From positions 3,224,001 to 3,288,000 of the forward strand of contig NZ_CP133262.1 of the NCBI RefSeq assembly GCF_030915405.1: 64,000 nucleotides of DNA, given 5' to 3'. The translations under genes and the position numbers were made by a program. The first letter of the stretch is position 1; the number at the start of each line of letters is the position of its first letter. The notes beneath the pieces are model-generated. The model made no database searches, was not told the origin of the DNA, and saw nothing but the letters and a program-made list of their open reading frames with translations. Of this stretch, positions 37,242-52,816 are shown one piece after another. This DNA is from Neobacillus nitrireducens (GTDB lineage Bacteria > Bacillota > Bacilli > Bacillales > Cytobacillaceae).

Positions 37242-37287
37242 CTTGTTTGTAAGCTGTTTGTAATCAAGTTGAAAAGGGTTGTGGATT

Positions 37288-37767
37288 GTGAATATCTCAA
37301 TTATTACGGTTGGTAAATTGAAAGAGAAATATTTAAAACAGGGTATTGAGGAATATTTAAAGCGACTAACTGCGTATGCAAAGGTAGATGTCATCGAAGT
37401 ATCTGATGAAAAAGCACCCGAAGAATTAAGTGGGTTAGAAATGATCCAGGTAAAGCAAAAAGAAGGGGAACGGATATTAGCAAAGATCAGCCAGGATACA
37501 TATGTCATTGCCTTAGCGATTCAAGGAAAATTAGGATCGTCCGAAGAACTGGCTGATTCATTAGATAAACTGGCTACCTATGGAAAAAGTAAAATTGCCT
37601 TTGTAATTGGCGGGTCATTGGGCTTAAGTGAGGAAGTCATCAAACGATCGAATGAGCAGCTATCTTTTTCACGGATGACCTTCCCCCACCAGTTGATGAG
37701 ACTAATACTCGTGGAACAGATTTACCGAGCGTTTCGGATTAATCGGGGGGAACCGTACCATAAGTAA
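37288..37767 (+). CDS. rlmH: 23S rRNA (pseudouridine-1915-N3)-methyltransferase RlmH
   Basis: RlmH is a SPOUT methyltransferase acting on pseudouridine 1915 of 23S rRNA. The 159 residues are the family length, from [20 protein letters not shown] through [13 protein letters not shown] to the C-terminal [10 protein letters not shown]. The GTG at 37288 is preferred over the in-frame TTG at 37279, as it matches the Bacillus N-terminus and has AAGGG upstream. The 3' end is the SCC attachment site in staphylococci (orfX), and the same end sequence recurs twice downstream here. Confidence 0.96.
37750..37767 (+). repeat. att-like core 1 at the rlmH 3' end
   Basis: GAACCGTACCATAAGTAA encodes the last RlmH codons (EPYHK stop). 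It matches the placement and form of the staphylococcal SCC attachment core GAAGCWTATCATAAGTAA. Copies recur at 40443-40460 and 44488-44505. To its right a short inverted repeat ATAAGCA/TGCTTAT lies at 37798-37827. The rest of the gap is the promoter and leader of the next gene. Confidence 0.75.
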
Positions 37768-37862
37768 CGGCGAAATTTTTACTTGAATTTATATTAGATA
37801 AGCATAATTATAATATTTTTTGCTTATAAGGTTTTAAAATTCTTAAAAAACTCAGAAATATA

Positions 37863-37889
37863 TTGACAATTATTTAATAGATTGATAAA
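37863..37889 (+). promoter_or_regulatory. candidate promoter of the SAM-riboswitch transcript
   Basis: A perfect TTGACA (37863-37868) lies about 40 bases before the riboswitch. The best -10 is GATAAA (37884-37889), at a short 15-base spacing, so the -10 is uncertain. Confidence 0.45.
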
Positions 37890-37904
37890 GTTTAAAAAAA
37901 TATT

Positions 37905-38008
37905 TCTTATCCAGAGAGGTGGAGGGACTGGCCCAATGAAACCTCAGCAGCAGGTCTAATAAGACACTGTGCTAATTCCATCGGGTGTGAAGCCTAGATA
38001 GATAAGAG
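37905..38008 (+). ncRNA. SAM-I (S-box) riboswitch
   Basis: The S-box core is unmistakable. It has the P1 strand TCTTATC, the block AGAGAGGTGGAGGGACTGGC with CCAATGAAACC, the internal CAGCAGCAGG and GACACTGTGCTAATTCC, and the closing P1 strand GATAAGAG. A rho-independent terminator follows at 38029-38058. By the known mechanism, high SAM stabilises the aptamer and favours termination, turning off the permease and methyltransferase genes when methionine is ample. Confidence 0.95.
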
Positions 38009-38028
38009 CTACGTTATTATTTGTCAGT

Positions 38029-38058
38029 AACGCACTCATTTATCTGAGTGCGTTTTTT
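38029..38058 (+). terminator. SAM-riboswitch terminator
   Basis: AACGCACTCA pairs exactly with TGAGTGCGTT around six bases, followed by TTTTTT. It is the expression platform of the S-box. Confidence 0.92.
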
Positions 38059-38088
38059 GTTTTTTCTGGATGTAGGAAAAAGGGGACT

Positions 38089-39501
38089 ATGATGGAGAAG
38101 AAAAGCAAGCAAAAATTTCAAAGAAAAATGCAGACACGGCATTTAGTTATGCTATCGCTCGGCGGAGTGATTGGAACAGGATTATTCTTAAGTTCGGGTT
38201 ACACGATTCAACAAGCTGGCCCGTTTGGGACTATTATGTCCTATCTGATTGGTGCACTTGTGGTTTATCTCGTCATGCTATGTTTAGGAGAGCTTTCCGT
38301 ACATATGCCTGAAACTGGTGCCTTTCACAGTTATGCGACTAAATATATTGGACCAGGGACTGGGTATACAGTTGCTTGGTTGTACTGGCTAACTTGGACT
38401 GTTGCTTTAGGTTCTGAATTTACGGCTGCAGGATTATTAATGCAGCGATGGTTTCCATCCATTAATGTCTGGGTTTGGAGTTTGCTGTTTGCTATTTTGG
38501 TTTTTGTCTTAAATATACTGACGGTTAAGTTTTTCGCTGAATCTGAATTCTGGTTTGCGTCTATAAAGGTAATAGCGATTGTTCTGTTTATTGTTGTAGG
38601 AGTAGCGGCAATGGTAGGTTTCCTTCCGATGACTCATTCCCAATCGGCACCGTTCTTCTCTAATTTTACAAGTGCAGGTTTATTTCCTAATGGTGCTTTT
38701 GCGATTGTCATGACAATGCTTGCGGTTAACTTTGCCTTTTCAGGAACGGAATTAATAGGAATTGCAGCGGGGGAAACAGCAAATCCGGAAAAAACGATAC
38801 CAAAGGCCATTCGTACTACATTGTGGAGATTGATTATCTTTTTTGTAGGAACGATTGTTGTATTATCTGCATTATTGCCTACTTCAGATGCAGGAGTATT
38901 AGAGAGCCCCTTTGTTACCGTTCTTGAACAAATTGGCGTACCATATGCAGCGGATATTATGAACTTTGTCATATTAACAGCCATTCTATCTGCGGCAAAC
39001 TCAGGTCTTTATGCCTCTTCAAGAATGCTTTGGTCACTAGCAGATAAGAATACGATATCACCCATTTTTGCAAAATTAACAAAACAAGGTGTTCCAATAT
39101 ATGCAGTCATTTTTAGCATGTGTGGCGGTGGTTTAGCTTTGTTCTCAAGTATTATTGCACCAGATACAGTGTATATCGTACTTGTATCCATTTCGGGCCT
39201 AGCTGTGGTGGTAGTTTGGATGAGTATTAGTGCTTCACAGTTTTTCTTTCGCAGACAATATATTAAAGAAGGAAATTCCGTAAAGGACTTAGTTTATCGT
39301 ACACCATTCTATCCTTTGGTACCAATCGCTTCCTTTATCCTTTGTCTTGCTTCTTGTATTGGAATCGCATTTGACCCTACCCAACGAATTGCCTTATATT
39401 GTGGCATTCCATTTATCTTGTTTTGCTATGCAAGTTATTATGTAACCCAGAGTTTAAAGAAAAGAGGAGCAGACTATGTCCAACAAAATCAACCCTATTA
39501 A
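38089..39501 (+). CDS. APC-family S-methylmethionine permease (MmuP-like)
   Basis: A 470-residue amino-acid permease of the APC superfamily with about 12 membrane helices. The N-terminal signature [20 protein letters not shown] is at about 19-38, and [24 protein letters not shown] is near the middle. Its place under a SAM riboswitch and overlap of 26 bases with an MmuM-type methyltransferase point to S-methylmethionine as substrate. The family alone would allow other amino acids. Two adjacent ATGs (38089, 38092) are possible starts. Confidence 0.88.
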
Positions 39502-40423
39502 GGCTATTTTATCAGAACATTCCATTATGCTACTGGACGGAGCGTTAGCCACAGAGCTTGAGTCGTATGGGTGTAATTTGGACGATCCCCTCTGGTCTGC
39601 ACGTGTATTACTAGAAAATCCAGAATTGATTTATCAGGTTCATTCTGACTATTTTCGTGCTGGAGCGGACTGTGCCATAACGTCAAGCTATCAAGCAACC
39701 ATTGACGGTTTTTCCAAGCGTGGTATCCAAGAGAAAGAAGCTTTAGAACTAATTAAGGAAACGGTATTACTTGCGAGAAAAGCAAGAGATGATTTTTGGC
39801 AGGAAAATTCACAGACCAATAGACCTAAGCCATTGGTTGCCGCATCCGTTGGTCCTTATGGGGCTTACCTAGCGGATGGTTCAGAGTATGTGGGAAACTA
39901 CGGTGTTACAGATGAAACATTAATAGACTTTCATCGCACAAGAATGTCAGCGTTGATTGAAGCAGGTGCTGATCTATTAGCATTTGAAACGATTCCTTCC
40001 CTGCAGGAAGCGAAGGTATTAGCTTCATTGTTGAAGGAATTTCCAGATACATATGCCTGGCTATCCTTTTCTTTGAAAAATGAGAAAGCGATAAGTGACA
40101 ATACGCCGCTGGCAGAGTGTGCGAGAGTGTTTGGCGACAACGAACAAATTGTTGCCATTGGTCTCAATTGTGCACCAGTGACAATCGTGACGGAAGCTAT
40201 CAACGAGTTGCGAACAAACACCAAAAAACCGATTATTGTTTATCCGAACTCTGGTGAAACCTATAATCCAGAAACTAAAACATGGCATGGTCAAGAATTA
40301 TGTAATGGGCTCGACTTTAAATCTGAAGAATGGTACCTTGCAGGGGCACGACTAATAGGGGGATGCTGCAGAACAGCACCGCATCATATTGAAGAGATTT
40401 CAAAAAAGTGGCGAACTTCTTAA
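39476..40423 (+). CDS. mmuM: homocysteine S-methyltransferase
   Basis: Transfers a methyl group from S-methylmethionine to homocysteine, giving two methionines. The 315 residues have the N-terminal [16 protein letters not shown], the zinc Cys in GLNCAP (near residue 225) and the second zinc motif [11 protein letters not shown] near the C-terminus, all present. AAAGAGGAGC lies upstream of the ATG. It overlaps the permease gene, and att-like core 2 lies 20 bases beyond its stop. It would recycle homocysteine under low-SAM conditions. Confidence 0.94.
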
Positions 40424-40442
40424 TTATTTAGATTGTTACGGA

Positions 40443-40460
40443 GAACCGTACCATGAATAG
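40443..40460 (+). repeat. att-like core 2
   Basis: GAACCGTACCATGAATAG matches core 1 at 15 of 18 positions and core 3 at 13 of 18. Read in frame, it and its left flank give CYGEPYHE and a stop, an echo of the RlmH tail. Its left flank TTGTTACGG is shared with core 3 but not with rlmH, as expected for an element-borne end. No gene lies between here and the bioY remnant. Confidence 0.7.
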
Positions 40461-40508
40461 TGATGGTTTTTTATATATTAACTTTATTTATGGTGAAATT
40501 TGTGATAA

Positions 40509-41066
40509 GAGTATGAGATTAATCATCTAATCGACATATGGCTAGGCGTAGTTCCGCCTATTATGCTTTCTTTTACTCCTGTTCCTATTACATTACAAAC
40601 TTTAGGTGTGCTTCTTACAGGAGGAGTATTGGGAGCAAGATTAGGGGCGATGAGCCAAATCATCTTTTTATTACTTGTCGCTGCTGGAATGCCTCTTCTA
40701 TCTGGGGGACGTGGTGGACCAAGTGTTTTTGTCGGACCAAGTGTTGGTTATTTAATTTCATGGCCTATTACGGCTTTTTGTATTGGGTATTTACTATCAC
40801 GTTTTCAAAATTTAAAATTAAAATATGTATTAATGATTAATTTGACAGTTGGAATTCTATTAATCTATTTAATTGGAATTCCTGCTCAAGCATTTATGAT
40901 GGACATTCCTGTTTTAGAAGCTGCAAAATTAAGTTTAATTTATATACCAGGGGATGTGTTAAAAGCTATTTTAGCCTCTATTTTAGTTTACAGACTAAGA
41001 AAGCACCCGTTTTTTTCACGCTCATTAGCAACAAGTTATTCCAATAACTTAACTAAGAATATCTAA
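40509..41066 (+). pseudogene. bioY: biotin transporter BioY, 5'-truncated
   Basis: The substrate-binding membrane subunit for biotin uptake. The frame is open from 40509 and reads IWLGVVPPIMLSFTPVPITLQTL, then GARLGAMSQ, LLSGGRGGPSVFVGP and PGDVLKA, all BioY hallmarks. The usual start helix is missing. No ATG, GTG or TTG lies in frame before 40563, and the ATG there would start inside the conserved core with no ribosome site. The break is about 50 bases from att-like core 2. From 40563 the product would be 167 residues. It is probably inactive unless a rare start is used. Confidence 0.75.
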
Positions 41067-41072
41067 ATCTTA

Positions 41073-41099
41073 AGAGACACCTTGATGTGTCTTTTTTTT
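41073..41099 (+). terminator. hairpin between bioY and the acyl-CoA ligase gene
   Basis: GAGACAC pairs with GTGTCTT (with one G-T) and is followed by seven T. It suggests the ligase gene has its own promoter or is fed by readthrough. Confidence 0.7.
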
Positions 41100-41113
41100 A
41101 AAGGTGATATATC

Positions 41114-42580
41114 ATGAGAAATATTACAGATTCATATAAGACTTTCGCAAAATTATCCCCAAACAAAATCGCTATCCATACGAATCATCAACAAATCAGT
41201 TATCAAGAATGGTATGAATTAATCAATCAAACAGCGAACTGGCTTCATTCTCTTCATTCAGAAAATAAAACAATAGGAATCCTTTTGCCAAACGGTATCC
41301 CTTTCCTACAATTCTTTGCAGGAGCATCTAAGGCTGGTTGGATTGCTGTTTCATATGATTTGAAATGGAATATATCCGAATTGGAAAAGAGGGTCATCCT
41401 TTCCCGCCCTTCTATCATTGTCACAACTAGAGAAATTTACTCTCAAATCAAGCAAAGCATTCCTAATATAACGATTTTGGATGATTGTTTACAGGAAATC
41501 TCTCAATTTGATCCTGCAACTGTAAGAAAAACGGAAGAAAATCTGCCTTTTTACATTGGATTTACTTCTGGTACGACAGGTAACCCAAAAGCTTTTGTTC
41601 GCTCTCAAGATTCATGGGTGGCTAGCTTTGATTGCAATCGTTTTGATTTCGGATTAGATGAATCCGATCAAGTTCTTATTCCTGGTGCCCTAATTCATTC
41701 TCATTTTCTGTATGGAGCTATTAGCACCTTGTATTTAGGTGGAACTGTATTTCTTTTAGAAAAGTTTTCTCCTATTGAAGCACTTACATGGATACAGTCC
41801 TTACCCATTACAACCATTTATGTAGTTCCGACTATGGTAGAAGCATTCCTGAAAAAAGGAATCCAAATCGATAAGACTATAAAAATTCTTTCATCTGGTG
41901 CAAAATGGTCTGAAAGATCAAAACTAGAAATCCGTCATATGTTTCCTAATAGGACCATGTACGAGTTTTATGGAGCTAGTGAATTGAGCTTCATTACGGT
42001 ACTTTCTGATAGAGAAGGTATTCAGAAAGCAACATCTGTCGGAAAGCCTTGTTATGGAGTTGAGGTACAAATACGGCGTCCAGATAAGAAATTAGCAAAG
42101 CTAAATGAGACCGGAAAAATATATGTAAGAAGCAAATTTGTGATAAATGGGTACTTTGATTATGAGGGAAGTACCATTCATTCCATTCATGATGAAGAGG
42201 GGTGGGCCACGGTCCATGATATGGGCTATTTTGACGAGGATGGCTTTTTATATATTATCGGCCGTGAACAAAATATGATTTTATATGGGGGAATTAATAT
42301 TTTTCCTGAAGAAATTGAAAAAGTAATTGCCTTGCATCAAGATGTCGAGGAAGTTGCTGTAATTGGCCTATCAGATTCATACTGGGGTCAAATTGTGGCT
42401 GCAGTAGTAAAAGGAAAGGCAAGCCCGTCAGATTTAAAAAGAGTTTGTAAGCTGCATTTATCTTCCTTTAAAATTCCTCGTAAGTGGCTTTTTCTATCTG
42501 AAATGCCATATACAACGAGTGGCAAGATAGCTCGTGCTGAGCTTATAAAACGAATGGAAAGCAAGGTGAGCAGTGATTAA
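41114..42580 (+). CDS. acyl-CoA ligase, AMP-binding family (YhfT-like)
   Basis: ATP-dependent acyl-CoA synthetase of 488 residues. The phosphate loop is FTSGTTGNPKAFVRS (about 151-165), followed by YGASELSF, the TAD-type region WATVHDMGYFDEDGFLYIIGRE, and the C-terminal catalytic Lys in YTTSGKIARAEL. It lies in the order bioY-ligase-thiolase, the same as B. subtilis yhfU-yhfT-yhfS. Natural acid substrate unknown; a carboxylic acid linked to biotin precursors is only an inference. It overlaps the thiolase gene by eight bases. Confidence 0.9.
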   Translation: MRNITDSYKTFAKLSPNKIAIHTNHQQISYQEWYELINQTANWLHSLHSENKTIGILLPNGIPFLQFFAGASKAGWIAVSYDLKWNISELEKRVILSRPSIIVTTREIYSQIKQSIPNITILDDCLQEISQFDPATVRKTEENLPFYIGFTSGTTGNPKAFVRSQDSWVASFDCNRFDFGLDESDQVLIPGALIHSHFLYGAISTLYLGGTVFLLEKFSPIEALTWIQSLPITTIYVVPTMVEAFLKKGIQIDKTIKILSSGAKWSERSKLEIRHMFPNRTMYEFYGASELSFITVLSDREGIQKATSVGKPCYGVEVQIRRPDKKLAKLNETGKIYVRSKFVINGYFDYEGSTIHSIHDEEGWATVHDMGYFDEDGFLYIIGREQNMILYGGINIFPEEIEKVIALHQDVEEVAVIGLSDSYWGQIVAAVVKGKASPSDLKRVCKLHLSSFKIPRKWLFLSEMPYTTSGKIARAELIKRMESKVSSD

Positions 42581-43670
42581 AAGGGCAGTAATTGTCAAAG
42601 CGAAACGAACACCTATTGGAAAAATGGGTGGAATTTTACGAGATATTCAGCCGTATAAGCTTGCAGCTCCTCTCCTCCAACATTTAGCGAAAGGATTGGA
42701 AGATAGGATAGATGACATCATTTTGGGAAATGTAGTTGGACCAGGTGGAAACGTAGCTCGAGTTGCTACGTTAGAAGCAGGACTTCCTCTTTCGGTAACG
42801 GGAATCACCATTGATCGTCAATGTAGTGCAGGGTTAGAAGCAATACGGATGGCATGTTACTTTGTCCAAGGCGGAGCTGGCCGTTGTTACATTGCTGGTG
42901 GTGTAGAAAGCACGAGTACCTCTCCGTTTCCATCTAGAGCGAGATTTTCTCCTGAAAAAATTGGCGACCCAGATATGGGCGTTGCAGCAGAATATGTGGC
43001 AGAAAAATACGCCATTTCAAAGGAAATGCAGGATGAATATGCTCTATTAAGTTATAAACGTAGCTGGGAAGCTTATGATAAAGGATATTTTAATCAAGAG
43101 ATCATTCAACTTGTGGATTTCCACCAAGATGAAGAACTTTTTAGGAAAAGAAAGATGGAAGTACTTTTAAATAGGGCGAAGCCTATATTTAAAAAGATCG
43201 GTACCGTTACCGCAGCCAACAGTTGTGGGATACATGACGGGGCATCGGCTGTACTTGTCATGGAAGAAAACATGGCATTAAATAATGGATTCCAGCCCAT
43301 ATTACGATTTTTGGATAGTGAAGTCACAGGTGTACATCCTAATTATCCAGGGGCTGCCCCTATTCCAGCGATTCAAGATTTATTAAAAAGAAACGAATTA
43401 ACCATTGCGGACATAAACCTAATTGAAATAAACGAGGCTTTCTCTTCCAAAATTGTCGCCTGTACAAAAGAACTTTCCATTGCTTATGACAAGTTGAACG
43501 TTTGCGGTGGAGCTTTAACGCTAGGACATCCTTATGGAGCTTCAGGAAGTATCATAATCACGAGGCTTTTCTATGAAGTACAAAGACGAAAGGGTATCAA
43601 ATATGTATTGGCTGCCATTGGAAGTGGTGGAGGAATTGGAGTAGCGGTCCTATTCGAGGTGGTAACATGA
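42573..43670 (+). CDS. thiolase-family protein (YhfS-like) lacking the second catalytic Cys
   Basis: A 365-residue thiolase-like acyltransferase. The nucleophile Cys84 lies in DRQCSAGLEAI and the His motif is GHPYGASG. At the canonical CxGGG loop the sequence is GSGGGIG, with Gly350 where the catalytic base Cys belongs, so normal Claisen or thiolytic chemistry is doubtful. It may be shorter than typical thiolases (about 390). The GTG start overlaps the ligase gene, and the next gene overlaps by four bases, so the four genes are translationally coupled. Confidence 0.88.
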   Translation: MIKRAVIVKAKRTPIGKMGGILRDIQPYKLAAPLLQHLAKGLEDRIDDIILGNVVGPGGNVARVATLEAGLPLSVTGITIDRQCSAGLEAIRMACYFVQGGAGRCYIAGGVESTSTSPFPSRARFSPEKIGDPDMGVAAEYVAEKYAISKEMQDEYALLSYKRSWEAYDKGYFNQEIIQLVDFHQDEELFRKRKMEVLLNRAKPIFKKIGTVTAANSCGIHDGASAVLVMEENMALNNGFQPILRFLDSEVTGVHPNYPGAAPIPAIQDLLKRNELTIADINLIEINEAFSSKIVACTKELSIAYDKLNVCGGALTLGHPYGASGSIIITRLFYEVQRRKGIKYVLAAIGSGGGIGVAVLFEVVT

Positions 43671-44062
43671 AAACGAAAGAACATGAGATTATTTTTAATA
43701 AAGATGATGTGCAACAATTTGTTCAATTGATAGGTGATCGAAATCCTATCTATCAGAGTTCGGAGAGGGCAAAAGACTACAGTTTCGAAACGATTCCTCT
43801 TCCTCCAACAATGCCTATGATCGCTTATAAATGGCTTGAAACCCCTTGGGAACTCAAACATCCTATTATTCATCGAAAACAGAAATGTATACAGCATCAA
43901 AGAATGTATATTGAAGAGATCTACAAAGCGGTAGTAGAAGTTACAGATCAATACCAACGTCACAACCTTACTTTTATGAAACAAACTTTATTTTTATTTA
44001 ATAGGGATGGAAAACTCTGCTTTGAAGGAATATCTGATTTGACCTTGGGTGGTTTGTCATGA
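43667..44062 (+). CDS. hot-dog dehydratase-like protein (MaoC N-terminal / FAS1-like)
   Basis: A 131-residue hot-dog-fold protein resembling the FAS1-like dehydratase domain (MaoC_dehydrat_N). Visible are the start of the fold, FNKDDVQQFVQLIGDRNPIYQ, then LPPTMPMIAYKWL, and the C-terminal strands. It lacks the His of a hydratase active site, so it probably pairs with the next gene, whose product has the catalytic residues. ATGA overlaps join both neighbours. Confidence 0.75.
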   Translation: MKTKEHEIIFNKDDVQQFVQLIGDRNPIYQSSERAKDYSFETIPLPPTMPMIAYKWLETPWELKHPIIHRKQKCIQHQRMYIEEIYKAVVEVTDQYQRHNLTFMKQTLFLFNRDGKLCFEGISDLTLGGLS

Positions 44063-44418
44063 ATGCGATTACCTATCAAATTACGGAAAAGGACGTTGAA
44101 CAATATGCGGTTATCTCAGGTGATAGCAATCCCATTCATTTAGATAAAGAAGCGGCGAAACAACAAGGATTCATGAATAAAATTGCCCATGGGATGTTAA
44201 CTGTGGCCAGAGTGTTAAGTGTGCTTTCAAATGAAATTCTCACACCTCATGAGTTTTTGAGTCAGTATGAATTTACCTTTATCGCCCCTGTTTATGTGGG
44301 GGATCTAGTAACTCTGACTATCAAACAAGCGGAGCATAACATAAGAGTAGAAGGAAAATGTAGAGAAAAAATAGTCGTAAAAGGATGTTTGATAGTTGAT
44401 AGAGGAAATCCTAGATGA
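44059..44418 (+). CDS. MaoC-family (R)-specific enoyl-CoA hydratase-like protein
   Basis: A 119-residue single hot-dog hydratase 2 domain. The catalytic motif YAVISGDSNPIHLDKEAAKQ and the downstream FMNKIAHGMLT provide the Asp and His. A dimer with the preceding gene product would form a two-subunit dehydratase. It is the last gene of the ligase-thiolase-dehydratase unit, 69 bases before att-like core 3. Confidence 0.85.
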   Translation: MNAITYQITEKDVEQYAVISGDSNPIHLDKEAAKQQGFMNKIAHGMLTVARVLSVLSNEILTPHEFLSQYEFTFIAPVYVGDLVTLTIKQAEHNIRVEGKCREKIVVKGCLIVDRGNPR

Positions 44419-44487
44419 TCAATTCCGGACATTTATGTCATTACAAGAGGAAATAGTATTAAAAACCGCCACTTAAGTTGTTACGGT

Positions 44488-44505
44488 GAACCTTATCATA
44501 AGTAA
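44488..44505 (+). repeat. att-like core 3
   Basis: GAACCTTATCATAAGTAA matches core 1 at 16 of 18 positions and differs from the staphylococcal SCC core GAAGCTTATCATAAGTAA at one base. With the left flank it reads CYGEPYHK and a stop, the exact RlmH C-terminal residues from GEPYHK on. Its left flank TTGTTACGG is shared with core 2. Beyond it, to 44598, lies only an AGACCAGAGAG / CTCTTGGTCT inverted repeat. Confidence 0.75.
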
Positions 44506-44631
44506 ATGAGGTTTTGATAATAACATTTTGGATACAGTGTAAAAAGACCAGAGAGGTACCTTTTTTAAGATAAGTTTATTACTCTTGGTCTCCTTTGGGT
44601 GGGTATTATTGTAGGTAAAGCGGTAAAAGCT

Positions 44632-44890
44632 ATGCGCATATTCTGCAGAATGCTTCCAAAAGAAGTGGAGGAGTTTATTGCCAAGTTTGATCTCATCAAA
44701 TTAAATGCTGCTTATGAATTGGTAAAAAAACAAAATATGATTCGCGAATGGCTAAAATCCAGTGGTTATTGCACGTTTATTGGGAATGGCAGCATTTTGC
44801 CAAGAAATAAAGACAACAGCGGGCCACTAGAAGGTGCCTTGCCTTTAACATCCCCGGAAGATGTTGAAGTTGAAATTACCGATAATTTGG
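44632..44890 (+). pseudogene. fragment of ABC-class predicted ATPase (PF09818-like)
   Basis: About 85 residues resemble the central part of the ABC_ATPase family: RMLPKEVEEFIAKFD, then MIREWLKSSGYCTFIGNGSILPR and GALPLTSPEDVEVEI. The nucleotide-binding P-loop that should follow is missing; the frame runs into unrelated sequence. It is a gene remnant beside att-like core 3 and marks a rearranged boundary. Confidence 0.6.
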
Positions 44891-44932
44891 TTACTATGTT
44901 CTTTGAACTTATTGGTCAGCCGTTTTTCGGGA

Positions 44933-45025
44933 ATTTCAGGTGTTCAAACAGGACTGCGTGCGAATGGACTCCATCTATCAATCTTTGCTCTTATTGGAAT
45001 TGTCATTATTTCATATATTAGTTGA
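44933..45025 (+). pseudogene. C-terminal fragment of a membrane protein
   Basis: In a different frame from the ATPase fragment, 30 residues (ISGVQTGLRANG, then a hydrophobic helix ending VIISYIS and a stop) look like a transporter C-terminus. The parent family is not recognised. It abuts the ATPase fragment with no start, so it is decayed debris. Confidence 0.45.
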
Positions 45026-45041
45026 AATATAGATTCAAAAG

Positions 45042-45071
45042 AAATCAGCCTTCACATAGGCTGATTTTTTA
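45042..45071. terminator. terminator between the remnant region and the diacid regulator
   Basis: AAATCAGCCT pairs with AGGCTGATTT around six bases, followed on the plus strand by TTTTTT. It may also serve the leftward regulator gene. Confidence 0.75.
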
Positions 45072-45085
45072 TGCAAAAACAACTT

Positions 45086-46129
45086 TTACTCTGAATCCCG
45101 CATTTTATAAATAACATAACCAGTATAGAGTTGAAATAAATCTGTGAATTTTTTTGGATTTTTGTTTGTCAAAATTTCAATCCTCTGTAAACGATAAGCT
45201 AAACTGTTCCGATGGATATGAAGTTCCTTAGAAATGGCATTCATATCCCCACTGTTTTTTATATAGCAAAGAAGTGTGTCAATAAGCTCTTGGCCTTTAG
45301 GGGTAATCTCAAGCTCCTGAAAAAAATGACTAATTTCGCTAAATGACTGATCTTTATTGGTCAAATAATCAATAAACTTTAGCTCCTGATAATAGCAGTA
45401 AGTGGATGGCATTCCTAGTCTTTCTGCTATATCGATTGCTCGCTTTGCTTCGTGTACTGATTTTGCTACATGCGTACTGCTATCACCGATTCCAATTTTG
45501 GTACTCTGCTGAGTAATCATCGGTTCTAATCGCTTTAAGAGATCACTATCAGTTGGCACAATGAATAAAACATTAGATTTATTCAGTTTGAATGTAAATT
45601 CCTGCTCTTTTAAATAGGGTTCTTTTATCGTTTCTCCCTTCACGATAATGGCCTTTCTCTCCAATTTAAGATTGATGCCAATAGCCTCCCCATTATTAAT
45701 AAAAGCTGCATCATATTCATCTAGTCGAAATACCCACTGATATAAAAACTCTTCCTTCATTTGCTCTTGTATTCTGCGTTCTCTAAATAAAAATTCCTGG
45801 TTAATTAATAATTCCGCCGTAACGCGGACTAACTCTGCAAAAGGTTCAACAATTGTGGGTTCCCCGCTAATTCCAATTACCCCGATTATTTCCTGCTTGA
45901 AATGGAATGGGATATTTACACCTGGCTTTGAAGAGCCTTCTGAATCATAAATGGAGACAATCGTTCCACGTTCAACCGCTGAAATGGCCCCTTGATGAAA
46001 AGTGTCGATTCGATTGGCGTTCCCACTTCCAATAATCATCCCCACTTCATCCATGATGTTTACATTATAAGGAATAACCATCATTACTTTATCCGCAATC
46101 TCCTGAGCGAGTACTCTATTTATTTTCAT
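45086..46129 (-). CDS. CdaR-family sugar diacid regulator
   Basis: A 347-residue regulator with an N-terminal sugar diacid recognition domain (starting MKINRVLAQEIADKVMMVIPYNVNIMDE, first 135 residues) and a C-terminal PucR/CdaR helix-turn-helix (NSGDMNAISKELHIHRNSLAYRLQRIE). CdaR in E. coli activates glucarate and galactarate genes. It is divergent from the glucarate cluster and presumably senses glucarate or a related diacid. GGGGGAA precedes the ATG. Confidence 0.92.
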   Translation of the reverse strand: MKINRVLAQEIADKVMMVIPYNVNIMDEVGMIIGSGNANRIDTFHQGAISAVERGTIVSIYDSEGSSKPGVNIPFHFKQEIIGVIGISGEPTIVEPFAELVRVTAELLINQEFLFRERRIQEQMKEEFLYQWVFRLDEYDAAFINNGEAIGINLKLERKAIIVKGETIKEPYLKEQEFTFKLNKSNVLFIVPTDSDLLKRLEPMITQQSTKIGIGDSSTHVAKSVHEAKRAIDIAERLGMPSTYCYYQELKFIDYLTNKDQSFSEISHFFQELEITPKGQELIDTLLCYIKNSGDMNAISKELHIHRNSLAYRLQRIEILTNKNPKKFTDLFQLYTGYVIYKMRDSE

Positions 46130-46176
46130 TGGCAGTTCCCCCTTTAGGAATATAGGTTTTCTAAATGATTTGTAAG

Positions 46177-46414
46177 TTTGCCTAAAAAATAATAAGGTTT
46201 CTTAGTAATTTGAATGATTGATTTATTTGTAAGACAATTATACAATAAAAATGTAAACGGTTACTAGAAATGATATAAAGTTTAAAATATAGTTGATTTA
46301 TTGTAATAAAGCGGTCACATAAGCTATCTTGACAATTTTAAACTCTTATAAAACCATAATCCTCTTGTTCATTTGCCTAAAAAATTATAGATATACTTTA
46401 GCAAACTGAATGAA
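46177..46414. promoter_or_regulatory. two-copy candidate operator between cdaR-like gene and glucarate genes
   Basis: TTTGCCTAAAAAAT occurs at 46177-46190 and again at 46372-46385. Each copy continues into a similar pattern: CTTAG then TTGAATGA after the first, CTTTAG then CTGAATGA after the second. One copy is near the regulator start and the other is in the upstream region of the catabolic genes. They are good candidates for the diacid regulator's binding sites. The whole gap is 575 bases (46130-46704). A TTGACA lies at 46329-46334 without a good -10 partner. Confidence 0.5.
46252..46265 (+). promoter_or_regulatory. catabolite-responsive element (cre) 1
   Basis: TGTAAACGGTTACT matches the CcpA cre consensus TGWAANCGNTNWCA at 13 of 14 positions. 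It would impose glucose repression on the glucarate cluster. Confidence 0.65.
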
Positions 46415-46425
46415 GATATTTACAC

Positions 46426-46439
46426 CGAAGCCGTTTACA
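46426..46439 (-). promoter_or_regulatory. catabolite-responsive element (cre) 2
   Basis: On the minus strand TGTAAACGGCTTCG matches the cre consensus at 12 of 14 positions. It lies about 270 bases before the first catabolic gene. Confidence 0.5.
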
Positions 46440-46704
46440 ATAGACATGTGAAGAAATTCACAAATAAACACAACGTCTATTAATCTTTAAATGTACTCCA
46501 TTATCACATGTCTATTATTTGTAACAACTTTCGCATTAGTGTTCACTCCAAGTGGTTATTATTAGATTACTAAGTTAAAAAAAGTGCTAATCAAAATAAT
46601 AACCTTTTCCAAAAGTAAACTATGTGAATCAGTTCACAAATTTGATGAACTTGTTGGAGTTTCAGGAATTTTTTAAAATTGAAGAGCAAGGAGGAGTTAA
46701 ATCA

Positions 46705-47601
46705 ATGTTTAAGCCAAAAGGGGTCATACCCGCATTAGTCACACCTTTAGATCAAAATGGTAACTTGATGGAAGATGCTTTAAGAAAAGTAATTGATTAC
46801 ACAATTGCAGGCGGTGTTCATGGTTTATTCATTCTAGGGAGCAGTGGTGAAATTTACGGGTTAACACCAGAGCAAAAGCGCCGGGTTGTAGAAGTCACAG
46901 TTGATCATACAGCTGGCAGAGTTCCCATTTATTGTGGAGCCAGTGAGATTACGACGAGAGACTGTATCCAAACTGCTCAAATGGTTGAAGAAATTGGCGG
47001 TGTATCAGCACTATCTGTCCTTACACCATACTTTATGTCACCAACTCAAACGGAGTTAGCTGAGCACTTTAAAGCCATTGCCAAGTCAACAAACCTTCCC
47101 GTTATTCTGTATGGGAATGAAGCACGTACCCAAGTGAAAATTGATGTGAAGACGTGTGAAGAACTTAGTAAGGTTGACAACATAATTGGAATTAAAGACT
47201 CGAGCGGTGATATGACGAAAACAGCTGAGTACTTACGAGTAACTCCTCGTGAATCTTTTTCCGTATTACTCGGACGCGACACGCTCATTTATGCAGGTTT
47301 ATGTCATGGTGCCACTGGTGCGATTGCAAGTACAGGAAATATTGCTCCTAAACTAGTAGCAGATATTTACAATACATTTGTGGCTGGCGACTATCAAAAA
47401 TCACTAGAATTGCAGTTTAAACTTGCTCCATTACGCTTAGCTGTGGACAAAGCAACATTCCCTGTCGTATTAAAAGAAGGTTTAAGAATGGTAGGAATTG
47501 ATGTGGGTTATTCATTTGCGCCTGCAGCAGAGATGAATCCAGAAAGCAAAACAATCTTAGAAAATGTTTTAAAAGATTTAGAACTCTACCAAATTTATTA
47601 A
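46705..47601 (+). CDS. DapA-family lyase of the glucarate pathway (5-keto-4-deoxyglucarate aldolase or dehydratase)
   Basis: A 298-residue class I TIM-barrel lyase of the DapA/NAL superfamily. Motifs are LGSSGEIYGLT (GxxGE), the Tyr in VILYGNEA and the Schiff-base Lys in IIGIKDSSGDM. The frame is open 81 bases further upstream, but AAGGAGGAG at 46688-46696 sets the ATG at 46705. In B. subtilis the equivalent enzyme dehydrates the GudD product to alpha-ketoglutarate semialdehyde. Here no semialdehyde dehydrogenase is present but GarR and GarK are, so a retro-aldol reaction giving pyruvate and tartronate semialdehyde is inferred. Confidence 0.85.
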   Translation: MFKPKGVIPALVTPLDQNGNLMEDALRKVIDYTIAGGVHGLFILGSSGEIYGLTPEQKRRVVEVTVDHTAGRVPIYCGASEITTRDCIQTAQMVEEIGGVSALSVLTPYFMSPTQTELAEHFKAIAKSTNLPVILYGNEARTQVKIDVKTCEELSKVDNIIGIKDSSGDMTKTAEYLRVTPRESFSVLLGRDTLIYAGLCHGATGAIASTGNIAPKLVADIYNTFVAGDYQKSLELQFKLAPLRLAVDKATFPVVLKEGLRMVGIDVGYSFAPAAEMNPESKTILENVLKDLELYQIY

Positions 47602-47626
47602 TTTCCTAAGGGAAGGAAGAAATAAC

Positions 47627-48952
47627 ATGCCATTATTGTATGTTGCCTTAGCAGTTGTCCTTTTACTAGTTTTAATGATTCCGCTAAAAATGAACGGGTT
47701 CATAGCCCTTCTCTTGACTTCTATATTTGTCGGTCTCCTCGTGGGAATGCCATTGGATCAAATTTGGGAAACCATTGGTGATGGCCTTGGAGGCCAACTG
47801 GGCGGCACGGCCCTTATTGTTGGTATCGGTGCTATGCTTGGAACCGTTATGGCTGATGCGGGAGCCGCACAACGTATTGCTACTAGTTTAGTAGATAAGA
47901 TGGGAATTAAACGTATTCAAATTTCTATATTAATTGCTGCATTTGTTCTTGGTATAACAATGTTCTTTGAAGTAGCGTTTGTCTTATTAATTCCACTAGT
48001 ATTTGTTATTGCACGTCAAACAAAATTAAATCTATTATGGGTTGCTATTCCAATGTCAGTTGGATTGTCAACCTGTCATAGTTTTCTTCCGCCACACCCT
48101 GGACCAGCAGCAGTTGCTGATGTCTTCCATGCTGACATGGGATTAACTCTTTTATACGGTTTAATTATTGCAATACCTGCGGCTACTTTTATCGCACTTA
48201 CATGGACTAGATTGCCATTTATTAAAAAAATTAATCCAGCCATCCCTGAAGGGATTATTACAAACAAAACGTTTAAAGAGGAAGAAATGCCATCCTTTGG
48301 ATCAAGTATTTTCGTTGCTCTTATTCCAGTAATCCTTATGGCAATTGATGCTTTCTCAACTATATTTTTACCAGAAGGTAACGGATTTAGGCACGCAATG
48401 GATTTCTTCGGTTCATCAGAAATGGCACTATTAATCGCTCTCTTAATCTCTATGTGGCTGCTTGGACCAAAAATTGGTCGTCCATTAAAAGATGTTATGC
48501 AGTCTTGTTCCAATGCAGTTAAGCCAATGGCCATGATCATTTTGGTTATTGGCGCAGGCGGCGCATTTAAGCAAGTACTTGTTGATGGTGGGATTGCCGA
48601 TTATATCAAAGATATCACAGGTGGTTGGAACATGTCTCCAATCGTGCTTGCTTGGATCATTGCTGCTCTCTTACGTATTGCTCTTGGTTCAGCAACTGTT
48701 GCCGTTATGACTGCTTCTGGAGTAGTACTTCCTATTGCACAAGCTTCAGGAATTAGCATGGAATTAATGACACTTGCCGTTACATGCGGAAGTATTGCTT
48801 TCTCTCACGTAACTGACCCAGGCTTCTGGATGTTTAAGGAATACCTTAATTTATCCGTCCCTGAAGCAATAAAAATAAGAACAACTTATACAACTGCACT
48901 TGCCATCATTGGTTTGATTGGTGTCTTACTTCTTAATATGGTGATTGGATAA
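47627..48952 (+). CDS. GntP-family permease
   Basis: A 441-residue proton-coupled carboxylate permease of the GntP family with about 12 to 14 membrane helices. Family stretches are DGLGGQLGGTALIVGIGAMLG-like (residues 49-68 area), HSFLPPHPGPAAVADVFHADMG and SVAVMTASG-like TVAVMTASGVVLP, with TDPGFWMFKEY near the end. In this cluster the likely substrate is glucarate or a related hexarate or gluconate-like acid. It follows the lyase by 25 bases. Confidence 0.9.
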   Translation: MPLLYVALAVVLLLVLMIPLKMNGFIALLLTSIFVGLLVGMPLDQIWETIGDGLGGQLGGTALIVGIGAMLGTVMADAGAAQRIATSLVDKMGIKRIQISILIAAFVLGITMFFEVAFVLLIPLVFVIARQTKLNLLWVAIPMSVGLSTCHSFLPPHPGPAAVADVFHADMGLTLLYGLIIAIPAATFIALTWTRLPFIKKINPAIPEGIITNKTFKEEEMPSFGSSIFVALIPVILMAIDAFSTIFLPEGNGFRHAMDFFGSSEMALLIALLISMWLLGPKIGRPLKDVMQSCSNAVKPMAMIILVIGAGGAFKQVLVDGGIADYIKDITGGWNMSPIVLAWIIAALLRIALGSATVAVMTASGVVLPIAQASGISMELMTLAVTCGSIAFSHVTDPGFWMFKEYLNLSVPEAIKIRTTYTTALAIIGLIGVLLLNMVIG

Positions 48953-49098
48953 TTACTTTCTTTTGAGTCAATCGGGCGGTAAACGATCAATCCCCCCACC
49001 CATTTAGATGGGGTTTGCTGCCTGGTTTTAAAATTTCTAAATAAGAAGTACAAACTTGTACCTCTTTTAATAAAAAAATTTGTAGGAGTGAAGTAGAA

Positions 49099-49986
49099 AT
49101 GAAGAAAATTGGATTTATTGGACTAGGAATTATGGGGAAGCCTATGAGCAAAAACTTGATCAAAGCTGGTTACCAGTTAATCGTTAGTGACTTTAATAAA
49201 GAGGCTGTAAACGAACTTGAACAATTAGGTGCAGAAGTAGCAACAACTCCAAAAGCAATTGCTGAAAAAGCAGATATCGTGATTACTATGCTTCCAAACT
49301 CTCCAAACGTAAAAGCTGTTGCTTTAGGAGAAAACGGACTAATCGAAGGTGCACGTGAAGGATTAATCTATATTGACATGAGTTCCATCGCACCGGCTGC
49401 TTCTCAAGAAGTCTATCGAGCATTAATCGAAAAGGGCGTGGACATGTTAGACGCTCCTGTCAGCGGAGGCGAGCCAAAGGCAATTGATGGGACGATTTCT
49501 GTTATGGTTGGCGGTAAGAAAGAAGTTTTTGAAGAAGTGCAAGAGGTTTTAGCGGCCATGGCTGGATCGGTTGTCCATGTGGGTGAAATTGGTGCTGGTA
49601 ACGTAACAAAGCTTGCAAACCAAGTCATCGTTGCTTTAAACATTGCAGCTGTCTCTGAAGCATTTGTACTAGCTCAAAAAGCTGGAGTAAATCCAGAAGC
49701 TGTCTATCAAGCCATCCGCGGCGGTCTAGCTGGAAGTACGGTACTAGATGCAAAAGCACCAATGATGTTAGACCGTAACTTCAACCCAGGTTTCCGTATC
49801 AATTTACACATTAAAGACTTATCAAATGCGATGGAAACTAGCCACGAGTTTGGCGCTCCAGCTCCATTAACTGCAGCTGTTTTAGAAATGATGTATGCCT
49901 TAAAGGTGGATGGTCATGAGTTCGATGACCACAGCAGTCTATTAAAATACTATGAAAAATTAGCGAATGTAGAAATTTCAAGATAA
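49099..49986 (+). CDS. garR: tartronate semialdehyde reductase (2-hydroxy-3-oxopropionate reductase)
   Basis: A 295-residue beta-hydroxyacid dehydrogenase that reduces tartronate semialdehyde to glycerate with NAD(P)H. The N-terminal Rossmann motif is GFIGLGIMGKPMSKNLIKAG (about 4-23), the substrate loop is DAPVSGGEPKA, and the catalytic Lys is in GAGNVTKLANQ. Neighbours in the glucarate pathway support GarR over other family members. AGGAGTGAAG precedes the ATG. Confidence 0.92.
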   Translation: MKKIGFIGLGIMGKPMSKNLIKAGYQLIVSDFNKEAVNELEQLGAEVATTPKAIAEKADIVITMLPNSPNVKAVALGENGLIEGAREGLIYIDMSSIAPAASQEVYRALIEKGVDMLDAPVSGGEPKAIDGTISVMVGGKKEVFEEVQEVLAAMAGSVVHVGEIGAGNVTKLANQVIVALNIAAVSEAFVLAQKAGVNPEAVYQAIRGGLAGSTVLDAKAPMMLDRNFNPGFRINLHIKDLSNAMETSHEFGAPAPLTAAVLEMMYALKVDGHEFDDHSSLLKYYEKLANVEISR

Positions 49987-50007
49987 TTCATATTAAAAAA
50001 ATACTAT

Positions 50008-50048
50008 AGAGAACGTGGCATGGACGAATTCTGCGTTCTCTCTTTTTA
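50008..50048 (+). terminator. terminator after garR
   Basis: AGAGAACG pairs with CGTTCTCT around a 17-base loop, followed by CTTTTT. Confidence 0.8.
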
Positions 50049-50055
50049 AAAACGA

Positions 50056-50115
50056 GGCTGTGTTAAATTTATTTGTTGATTTTAGCTGCAATCAACAGAT
50101 AAGTTTAACACAGCC
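50056..50115. repeat. 60-base imperfect palindrome between garR and gudD
   Basis: GGCTGTGTTAAA at 50056-50067 is the complement of TTTAACACAGCC at 50104-50115. The inner arms TGTTGATT and AATCAACA also pair, leaving a loop TTAGCTGC. It follows the garR terminator directly, so a second terminator is not needed. The outer sequence resembles insertion-sequence end repeats. It may be a non-autonomous element remnant or an mRNA processing hairpin. Confidence 0.75.
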
Positions 50116-50148
50116 AAAAACTAAATCATTTGGATTGGAGATATCCCC

Positions 50149-51501
50149 ATGAAAACAGTTGAGAAAGTGATAAATGCTACTCCGGTTGTTACAGAAATGG
50201 AAGTATATCCTGTTGCCGGCCGTGACAGTATGTTATTAAATCTTAGCGGCGCACACGGTGCCTATTTTACTAGAAACATTGTGATTTTAAAGGATAGCAA
50301 TGGTAATGTCGGTGTTGGTGAAGTACCAGGCGGCGAAAGCATCCGTAAAACGCTTGAAGATGCAAGAGCCATTGTAGTCGGCTCATCAATCGGTAACTAT
50401 AACAATATCTTAAATGAAGTAAGAAAAGAATTTGTTGGTCGTGATTCAGCTGGCCGCGGTCTACAAACATTTGACTTACGAATCACGATTCACGCCGTTA
50501 CTGCGATTGAGGCTGCCCTGCTTGATCTATTAGGAAAGCATTTAAATGTTCCTGTTGCTGCTCTTCTGGGTGAAGGCCAGCAGCGTGATAAAGTAAAAAC
50601 ACTTGGATACTTGTTCTATATTGGCGACCGTAATCGGACGGATTTACCTTATTACGGCCATCCGGATTCTGAAGTGGAATGGTACCGAATCCGCCATGAA
50701 GAAGCGTTAACTCCTGAAGCAGTTGTACGTCTAGCAGAGGCATCCCAAGCACTTTATGGCTTTAAAGATTTTAAGCTAAAAGGCGGCGTTTTGGAAGGGA
50801 AAGAAGAAATCAAAGCGATTAAAGCACTAAAAGAAAGATTCCCTGATGCTAGAATCACCCTTGATCCAAATGGTGCTTGGTCATTAAAAGAAGCGGTTGA
50901 GCTTTGTAAGGATATGCATGGCATTCTAACCTATGCTGAGGATCCATGCGGTGCAGAAAATGGCTACTCAGGCCGTGAAGTCATGGCGGAGTTCAGGAGA
51001 CAAACAGGTCTTCCAACAGCAACGAATATGATCGCGACAGACTGGCGTCAAATGGGCCACACGATTTCACTGCAATCAGTTGATATTCCGCTTGCTGACC
51101 CGCACTTCTGGACGATGCAAGGTTCTGTGCGTGTAGCACAAATGTGTAATGATTGGGGACTAACTTGGGGGTCTCACTCTAATAACCACTTTGATATCTC
51201 ACTTGCGATGTTTACTCATGTGGCTGCGGCAGCTCCTGGTGAAATTACAGCAATCGATACACACTGGATTTGGCAGGAAGGAATTGAGCGTTTAACGAAG
51301 GATCCATTCCAAATCGTGGATGGGCACTTAGCGATTCCTGATAAGCCAGGTTTAGGTGTTGAAGTAGATATGGACCAAATCTTGAAGGCGCATGAAGTAT
51401 ACAATAATATGGGACTTAACTCTCGTGATGACTCAGTCGGTATGCAGTTCTACATCCCTGGCTGGAAATTTGATAACAAGCGTCCTTGCCTTGTTCGTTA
51501 A
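50149..51501 (+). CDS. gudD: glucarate dehydratase
   Basis: Enolase-superfamily enzyme converting D-glucarate (and idarate) to 5-keto-4-deoxyglucarate. The 450 residues carry the Lys motif FKLKGGV, metal ligands in [18 protein letters not shown] and TNMIATDW, and the catalytic His in [10 protein letters not shown]. The length is that of GudD. GGAGATAT precedes the ATG. It sits between garR and garK, completing the pathway. Confidence 0.96.
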
Positions 51502-51507
51502 AAATTT

Positions 51508-51540
51508 AAGGGTGGCTTGAATAGTCACCCTTCTCTTTTC
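51508..51540 (+). terminator. terminator after gudD
   Basis: AAGGGTG pairs with CACCCTT around 11 bases, followed by CTCTTTTC. garK may be fed by readthrough, as its start is only 40 bases on. Confidence 0.75.
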
Positions 51541-51579
51541 AAAAATATAAAACTTATAAAACGTAAAGGACAGATTGTT

Positions 51580-52707: not shown

Positions 52708-52712
52708 TAAAC

Positions 52713-52744
52713 CGAACGCTGCTAATATATGGCAGCGTTTTTTG
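52713..52744 (+). terminator. terminator after garK
   Basis: AACGCTGC pairs exactly with GCAGCGTT around nine bases, followed by TTTTTG. Confidence 0.85.
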
Positions 52745-52816
52745 TAATCGCTGGTGAAAAGAGATATAAATAGATTATAATAGGCTTACAAAATTGGTTA
52801 TACAAGGGGCCTAACG

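Follow-up and report, generated by a model that had tools for sequence, protein, structure and literature searches.

Elements of the staphylococcal cassette chromosome (SCC) are known mostly as the vehicle of methicillin resistance, and pseudo-SCC elements devoid of the ccr recombinase genes are a familiar notion in staphylococci. Do units of the same kind stand behind the rlmH gene of the soil bacterium Neobacillus nitrireducens, and how could they move there? The stretch analyzed, hereafter the window, comprises 64,000 nucleotides (G000:C1:3224001-3288000; genome G000 is a single contig of 5.15 Mb), and in it the last 18 bases of rlmH, here called the core, recur twice downstream of the gene. 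With a probability of roughly two in three (0.68), comparison of related genomes suggests that the two modules enclosed by the cores are recombinase-free (non-autonomous) SCC-like cassettes, arranged in tandem at the 3' end of rlmH and probably mobilized in trans. That they are core-bounded SCC-like cassettes seems very likely, and their mobilization in trans by CcrB-like enzymes seems fairly probable. The window by itself is weak evidence; comparison across the genus carries the case. The cores, the modules and their ends are the following.

37279..37767 (+), rlmH, 23S rRNA methyltransferase and anchor gene (PF02590, 201 bits)
37750..37767 (+), core 1, the rlmH 3' end GAACCGTACCATAAGTAA, joining rlmH to the left end of module 1
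37768..40442 (+), module 1, S-methylmethionine salvage cassette, 2,675 bp, core-bounded
37768..37783 (+), left terminus of module 1, CGGCGAAATTTTTACT
40424..40442 (+), right arm of module 1, TTATTTAGATTGTTACGGA, starting at the stop codon of mmuM
40443..40460 (+), core 2, GAACCGTACCATGAATAG
40461..44487 (+), module 2, biotin-transporter/acyl-CoA cassette, 4,027 bp, core-bounded
44460..44487 (+), right terminus of module 2, TAAAAACCGCCACTTAAGTTGTTACGGT, inverted-repeat partner of the module 2 left end (14/18)
44488..44505 (+), core 3, GAACCTTATCATAAGTAA

The original prediction, made from the window alone, had described three copies of the rlmH end in the same orientation, and their positions, strand and enclosed lengths were as claimed. 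It was also right about the in-frame readings, GEPYHK-stop for cores 1 and 3 and GEPYHE-stop for core 2, and about the left flank common to cores 2 and 3 (TTGTTACGG). The SCC-type motif with its reportedly essential C is present as TACCATAA in core 1, TACCATGA in core 2 and TATCATAA in core 3. The type of arm seen at the right end of module 1 is also found at other internal cores.

Distribution of the cores

One rival explanation of the copies is that they are alike by chance or belong to a conserved, immobile repeat downstream of rlmH. Within the window it finds some support, as 11 of 100 shuffles yield three matches at up to 3 mismatches; the zero mismatches of the window copies are by construction, because the search pattern was derived from the same three copies. 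The analysis was extended to 61 genomes of the genus. rlmH was found in 60 of them (G053 gave no rlmH match), and the 60 stretches downstream of it, that of G000 included, amount to 1.03 Mb, each up to about 19 kb and three below 2 kb; the core counts leave out G053 and the partial-rlmH loci L111 and L116. On the rlmH strand these stretches hold 63 cores at 0 mismatches and 25 at one (88 in total), versus 0 and 0 on the other strand. The essential C is kept in all 60 rlmH ends and in 87 of the 88 internal cores.

In 80 named loci, searched to a distance of at most 10 kb from rlmH in both directions, no core at up to 1 mismatch was found upstream of the gene on either strand. Downstream, the 28 loci of this set that were counted as Neobacillus have 23 forward cores, and the 52 loci from Cytobacillus, Mesobacillus, Bacillus and others have 36, spread over 23 of the 52 loci and counted with the rlmH ends excluded; a single reverse-strand core lies downstream among all 80. 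A 48-column profile trained on the 88 cores, with the threshold set one bit above the best reverse-strand score (two of the 88 training sites score below it), yields 99 internal sites. At least one internal site is present in 41 of the 53 stretches of at least 14 kb, and the maximum is seven. Over the entire 61 genomes, 324 perfect cores were counted versus 4 matches of a control pattern, 118 of the former lying in the fetched rlmH regions, rlmH ends included. The strand asymmetry, the control counts and the polymorphism at the cores described below refute the chance or non-mobile repeat, which is left with a negligible probability, and indicate that the cores are not chance repeats.

Cassette polymorphism and exchange between species

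Between sites of this kind lie 95 closed cassettes, the shortest of 425 bp and the longest of 14,179 bp (median 3,469), a count that leaves out four spacings under 60 bp, and 44 of the 95 have a homologue, at least half covered, in the rlmH region of another genome. Host identity was taken from about 10 kb upstream of rlmH; relative to G000 it is 97.2% for G036, assigned to the same species, and 97.1% for G042. In G000 the order is rlmH, module 1, module 2 and a sequence beginning with ATGAGG. The same order is seen in G036, with one extra core-bounded cassette of 1,391 bp, carrying a DUF3231 gene, between rlmH and module 1. In G042 a different cassette of 4,701 bp (an ATP-binding cassette transporter and a two-component system, as read by eye) stands ahead of module 1, and module 2 is followed by another cassette, beginning with AGGCAG. 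The left end to the right of core 3 is of the ATGAGGTTTT type in the window and G036 and of the AGGCAGTTTT type in G042. Close strains differ exactly at cores, by single cassettes present or absent, the direction (gain or loss) being left unassigned; it was this presence/absence polymorphism between cores that the original prediction had proposed to look for by aligning relatives.

The cassette that follows module 2 in G042 is the first one behind rlmH in G031, where it aligns over 8,633 of 8,633 bp, gap-free and at 98.27% identity, in hosts that are 73.6% identical. It holds one large GH94-type gene, and its neighbors in the two genomes are unrelated: with 900 bases compared on the left and 10 kb on the right, one 29-base match was seen, 7.6 kb away. 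A cassette with GerA and spore-permease-type genes is common to G038 and G041 (4,014/4,014 bp, 96.4% versus 81.1% for the hosts) and a gluconate operon cassette to G048 and G028 (98.2% in blastn pieces, 95.0% end-to-end, hosts 80.5%), while G047 and G018 have a cassette in common at array positions 1 and 4 (95.5% over the 70% of the cassette that aligned, hosts 73.9%). In 29 pairs, hand-chosen from 139, cassette identity was above host identity in 28, and in 15 of them the excess surpassed 12 points; module 2 in G000 and G036 was the exception (97.0 versus 97.2%). These comparisons indicate that near-identical recombinase-free cassettes cross species and land at different positions of the arrays.

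Cassette ends and the predicted point of exchange

The sequence to the right of a core is typical of the cassette beginning there (ATGAGGTTTT, AGGCAGTTTT and CGGCGAAATT among others), and the sequence to the left is typical of the cassette ending there (...TTTAGATACGTTACGGT or ...TTAAGTAGGTGCGGT). Core positions 14 and 17 track the class of the right flank (0.76 and 0.79 bits, with the lowest p that 2,000 shuffles can give), position 8 does so weakly (0.10 bits, p 0.0015) and position 5 barely (p 0.04); positions 2 and 11 do not. Where two junctions have one right cassette in common and unlike left neighbors, the cores differ at positions 2, 5 or 8 and agree from position 9 on. Together these patterns place the predicted point of exchange inside TAYCATAA, core positions 6-13. 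Compared as inverted repeats, the two ends of one cassette match on average at 10.56 of 18 positions, shuffled partners at 9.98 (0 of 500 shuffles as high) and random DNA at 8.83. The score of module 2 is 14/18.

The window modules in related genomes

Module 1 of the window is 98.7% identical to that of G036, 98.9% to that of G042 and 98.1% to that of G047, and all of these copies end at cores. Module 2 measures 4,275 bp in G036 and G047 and 4,256 bp in G042, its identity to the window copy being 98.3% in G042 and 97.0% in G036. Small excesses over host identity are seen for module 1 with G007 (81.2 versus 75.6%) and for module 2 with G057 (89.6 versus 86.1%), G026 (82.0 versus 73.9%) and G059 (78.5 versus 73.7%).

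The best sign that the module pair itself moved comes from the less related genome G047, in which modules 1 and 2 stand side by side 650 kb away from rlmH, every boundary being marked by a core (L230, G047:C1:5388000-5407900). These copies are 98.1 and 97.5% identical to those of the window, and the host flank is 81-84% identical. Synteny to G057 breaks at the outer cores of the block. For this ectopic block no clean empty site was found; in G057 its right flank is preceded by other DNA and not by a core. A near-identical module 2 is present in five genomes, and because module 1 adjoins it in four of them (G000, G036, G042 and G047; the fifth is G037), the two modules may have moved as one composite.

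Recombinases

No recombinase was found among the seven module proteins scanned, and in the whole of G000 there is no CcrB-model match at E<=1e-20 and one PF07508 protein, 270 kb away. The original prediction had noted that no ccr gene was visible; at these thresholds the statement extends from the window to the entire genome. As a recombinase for the rlmH locus the PF07508 protein (L001, G000:C1:2991963) was rejected, having neither a CcrB-model match nor a core in the surrounding 14.9 kb. Because no such recombinase was found in G000, the two window cassettes are probably fixed at present unless a recombinase arrives, and the chance that they are still able to move in this strain is low.

The search for ccr-type enzymes, negative in the window genome, was positive in its relatives, where CcrB-like large serine recombinases stand just downstream of rlmH. 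A PF07508 match is present in 46 of the 61 genomes, and within 14 kb of rlmH the CcrB model gives scores of 436, 390, 387, 321 and 316 bits in four genomes. The six best CcrB-model matches (E below 1e-90) belong to G027 (two), G010, G009, G023 and G060. The recombinases of G010, G009 and G023 adjoin rlmH, the G027 pair lies 10-13 kb behind it, and that of G060 is about 180 bp from a core, on a contig other than that of rlmH. Weaker or broken CcrB-like recombinases occur near rlmH in G009, G051 and G048, those of G048 being pieces with stops, between cores. The Resolvase, Recombinase and Zn ribbon Pfam domains are all present in the five recombinases scanned. Judged by the NCBIfam equivalog cut-off, the rlmH-adjacent enzymes are relatives of CcrA/B/C and not members of these families.

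The region behind rlmH in G027 opens with the same 14 bases as module 1, and in the 19 kb seen no right-hand core was found. Its recombinase pair lies behind type I restriction-modification genes (read by eye) and adjoins an 833-aa protein without Pfam or NCBIfam match at 1e-3. Open reading frames (ORFs) similar to six of these serine recombinases occur in five of the 95 closed cassettes, in some as pieces only, and in three open ends; in the other 90 closed cassettes no ORF of at least 60 codons similar to the six was found, other recombinase families not being sought. The exchanged cassettes (G031/G042, G038/G041, G048/G028 and G047/G018) are not among the five recombinase-bearing ones.

Four recombinase genes abut rlmH (L065:907-2649, minus strand; L071:17281-19041, plus; L100:17073-18860, plus; L074:982-2121, minus). 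Their frames cross the core and stop 29-108 nt inside rlmH, on the opposite strand, and for L065 and L074 excision as a circle would give the recombinase a different predicted C-terminal tail. A recombinase remnant in L058 likewise crosses its core.

Gene content and neighborhood of the modules

The following features were annotated in the two modules and to the right of core 3.

37904..38008 (+), S-adenosylmethionine (SAM, S-box) riboswitch of module 1 (RF00162, 85.3 bits, E 1.6e-19)
38089..39501 (+), S-methylmethionine permease, mmuP-like (NF008484, 740.6 bits, cut-off 716; PF00324)
39476..40423 (+), homocysteine S-methyltransferase, mmuM-like (PF02574, 268 bits)
40563..41066 (+), bioY remnant of module 2 (PF02632, 129.9 bits)
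41114..42580 (+), acyl-CoA synthetase (NF005797, 615.9 bits, cut-off 518)
42573..43670 (+), acetyl-CoA C-acyltransferase, a thiolase (NF005212, 598.4 bits, cut-off 498)
43667..44062 (+), FAS1-dehydratase-region (hot-dog) protein (PF13452, 30.3 bits, cut-off 22)
44059..44418 (+), MaoC-like hydratase (PF01575, 87 bits)
44506..53427 (no strand), region right of core 3 with pseudogene debris, a diacid-type regulator and catabolic genes

S-methylmethionine salvage and an acyl-CoA module, the contents originally proposed, were borne out, with the correction that bioY is damaged. Its start and upstream region are gone through a deletion of ~249 bp at about 40540, seen in the alignment with G036 and G047; in G047 the protein has 194 aa. 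Together with the acyl-CoA synthetase and the thiolase, bioY of module 2 resembles yhfUTS of B. subtilis.

No right-hand core was found in 44506-53427, a possible third cassette. This DNA is present in G036, and G042 is without it at the same place; because a 3' piece of its gene read by eye as GntR-type is retained in G042, the loss there does not end at a core. A search for 44506-49500 across the whole of G042 gave weak matches only. The ORF at 44599-45021, just right of core 3, has a match confined to its N-terminal part and to the beginning of PF09818 (ATPase; positions 4-65 of 283) and is probably pseudogene debris. Further on, at 16 kb from rlmH, 53872-55393 shares 88.2% identity with a G013 cassette that is core-bounded (L076; hosts 73.1%); it has no recognizable cores around it in the window and is perhaps an old cassette with decayed sites. 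In G036, G042, G038 and G057 a gene that by eye resembles the LysM/3D type stands 20-47 kb behind rlmH; the segment 60409-61314 matches it and is a possible right-hand anchor of the variable zone.

Cores away from rlmH

At least one perfect core is present in 183 of 193 genomes and in 24 of 25 genera of a family sample; in many of the genomes this core will be the end of rlmH itself. Among the matches listed, same-orientation clusters of perfect cores far from rlmH occur at G003:C6:28030-71367, in G013:C2, in G025:C1-C3 and in G018:C32, among other places; judging from their cores, these are secondary cassette arrays, which may have arisen through secondary sites or through rearrangement. Additional incomplete copies of the rlmH 3' end, with 22-59 residues matched, were observed to terminate in a core-like site at L111, L112, L113, L114, L116 and L117, in the genomes G019, G034, G035, G046, G056 and G043, and some have further sites behind them; a seventh fragment, in G060 (L115), has no core. 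A short repeat beginning at about AGCCAAATGCCTCTCCTTAAGGTTGGGG stands about a dozen bases after several cores (L110, L104, L109 and L066) and is a candidate small cassette or mobile repeat. L110 (G000:C1:2642496), the fourth perfect core of G000, is preceded by a gene that looks TerD-like by eye and followed by this repeat; as a possible further copy of a module it was rejected, since the region matches neither.

Cassette movement and alternative explanations

Comparison shows that cassette ends carry attachment-site halves, giving one core per boundary. rlmH keeps its last codons, the next core can act as a fresh landing site, and the cassettes align in one orientation. In the mechanism that we propose, strand exchange within TAYCATAA would be carried out by CcrB/CcrC-like large serine recombinases, which we infer to be supplied in trans by the minority of elements encoding them. 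In many cases a cassette has the appearance of an entire operon that brings its control along, such as the SAM riboswitch with permease and methyltransferase, and for that reason it can function at any place of landing. The original prediction of ccr-less SCC-like modules inserted in tandem is thereby supported by the cassette polymorphism at cores and by the CcrB-like enzymes of relatives. It had pictured an island in one chromosome; the phenomenon is genus- and family-wide and not peculiar to this genome.

The modules could also be relics of larger autonomous SCC-like elements from which ccr has been deleted, core-bounded remnants that are immobile as units. The G027 region, where a CcrB-like pair follows the opening 14 bases of module 1, would suit such an origin, as would the damaged bioY and the G048 recombinase pieces between cores. 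However, recombinase-free cassettes are the rule (90/95), and several complete recombinase-free units have been exchanged between species, the gap-free one of 8,633 bp with its single large gene for example, and we regard relics as an unlikely explanation. A hot spot of homologous recombination, acting through flanking cassettes or rlmH and leaving the cores as passive scars of ancient insertions, is less likely still. Cassettes common to arrays could act as homology arms, and the G047 block, breaking synteny with G057 at its outer cores, puts cores at rearrangement points; yet the 8,633-bp cassette has unrelated neighbors on both sides in G031 and G042, the two ends of a cassette agree as inverted repeats, bases 14 and 17 of the core go with the cassette to its right, and G000 and G036 differ by precisely one cassette with its neighbors unchanged.

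Several observations weigh against recombinase-free cassettes mobilized in trans, the reading preferred here, for which the support is comparative throughout. Twelve of the 53 stretches of at least 14 kb are without an internal core. The class of the left flank is tied to no core position except, weakly, 17 (p 0.045, n=63), so that the boundary of the exchange point on the left is set by few junction pairs. The ends of module 1 match at 9/18 positions, no better than random (mean 8.8), and no recombinase reaches the NCBIfam Ccr cut-offs (900 bits for CcrB/CcrC, 700 for CcrA), the best score being 436 for CcrB. In G036 and G042 the identity of the modules (97.0-98.9%) is about that of the hosts (97.1-97.2%), and the divergence among G000, G036 and G042 fits vertical descent. 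As the G047 modules sit 650 kb from rlmH, rearrangement or secondary sites appear to act as well. In G037, whose rlmH end is 85.1% identical, a partial module 2 (96.9%) was found with no core within the 20 kb fetched and no module-1 match; module 2 thus seems to persist also without sites. In G057 the preceding cassette and module 2 are not separated by a core, and the core-to-core units that contain module 2 in G026 (6.5 kb) and G059 (5.0 kb) are larger than the module. Finally, among nine of the 17 genus matches of mmuM that were looked at, cores flank the gene on both sides in five (G000, G036, G042, G047 and G007), on one side in G003, and on neither in G009, G039 and G032.

Comparison with known systems

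With SCC and SCCmec, as these are generally understood, the Neobacillus units have in common the insertion at the rlmH 3' end, the TAYCATAA core with its reportedly essential C, the single orientation and the tandem composites; imperfect inverted repeats at the ends are seen in module 2 and as a genus-wide signal, whereas module 1 scores no better than random. They are unlike them in that ccr is present neither in the two modules nor, as far as found, in G000, recombinase-free units being the rule in Neobacillus; in addition, the cassettes are small (0.4-14 kb), and those looked at carry metabolic, germination or sugar genes. Because ccr was tested for as a criterion and no such gene was found, the window modules are not members of SCC proper. 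The resemblance to a chromosomal integron, again as commonly understood, concerns the functional layout only, an anchored array in one orientation with most units lacking a recombinase of their own. The integron enzyme, IntI, is a tyrosine recombinase with attC hairpins as its sites, whereas here a serine recombinase, a double-stranded core with half-site arms and whole-operon cassettes are in question.

The criteria for the SCC family are partly those in general use and partly taken from a study of the Enterococcus cassette chromosome (ECC). ECC is reported to integrate at the rlmH 3' end, to have the conserved TATCATAA and to encode CcrAB-like serine recombinases (PMC6222049). The same text reports TAYCATAA as a motif common to ECC and SCC, multiple attR in 16 of 32 ECCs, and sizes of 21-78 kb for elements identified through ccrAB (PMC6222049). 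The Neobacillus units are like ECCs in site and conserved sequence but unlike them in being small and mostly ccr-less. SCC-like elements with PolA-SSB primases and large serine recombinases, mostly downstream of rlmH, have been described in Bacillota; the hosts named in the accessible text include Bacillus, Niallia, Listeria and Paenibacillus, and some elements are apparent composites with more than one rlmH-end repeat (PMC10061031). The recombinase pair of N. rhizophilus (G027) beside the 833-aa protein is reminiscent of these. That survey, with its helicase and recombinase baits, could hardly reveal recombinase-free units, and arrays of such units are not described in the accessible part of that text. 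An SCC-related island outside rlmH has been published as well (PMC10581047).

The literature already covers SCC-like elements at rlmH of Bacillota, tandem composites included. In the literature searched, which left most subscription papers outside, no description was found of ccr-less rlmH cassette arrays in Bacillaceae with interspecies exchange, and relative to the published SCC-like elements the arrays of small ccr-less operon cassettes look new.

Implications

More tentatively, and at slightly less than even odds, the Bacillaceae may possess a pool of recombinase-free operon cassettes with SCC-type ends, which would line up head-to-tail behind rlmH, with secondary arrays at other chromosomal positions, and be shuffled in trans through CcrB-like serine recombinases of scattered occurrence. 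This would be a form of integron-like gene capture, of which SCCmec would be one specialized branch. The origin of the SCC site system and the route by which cargo enters cassettes are open questions. Environmental bacteria now make them testable, through the identity of the recombinase that moves a ccr-less cassette, the way in which an operon gains cassette ends, and the possible role of the arrays as a reservoir. For annotation the finding is a warning that in Bacillaceae the genes following rlmH often are mobile cargo, in units that can be recognized without a recombinase gene.

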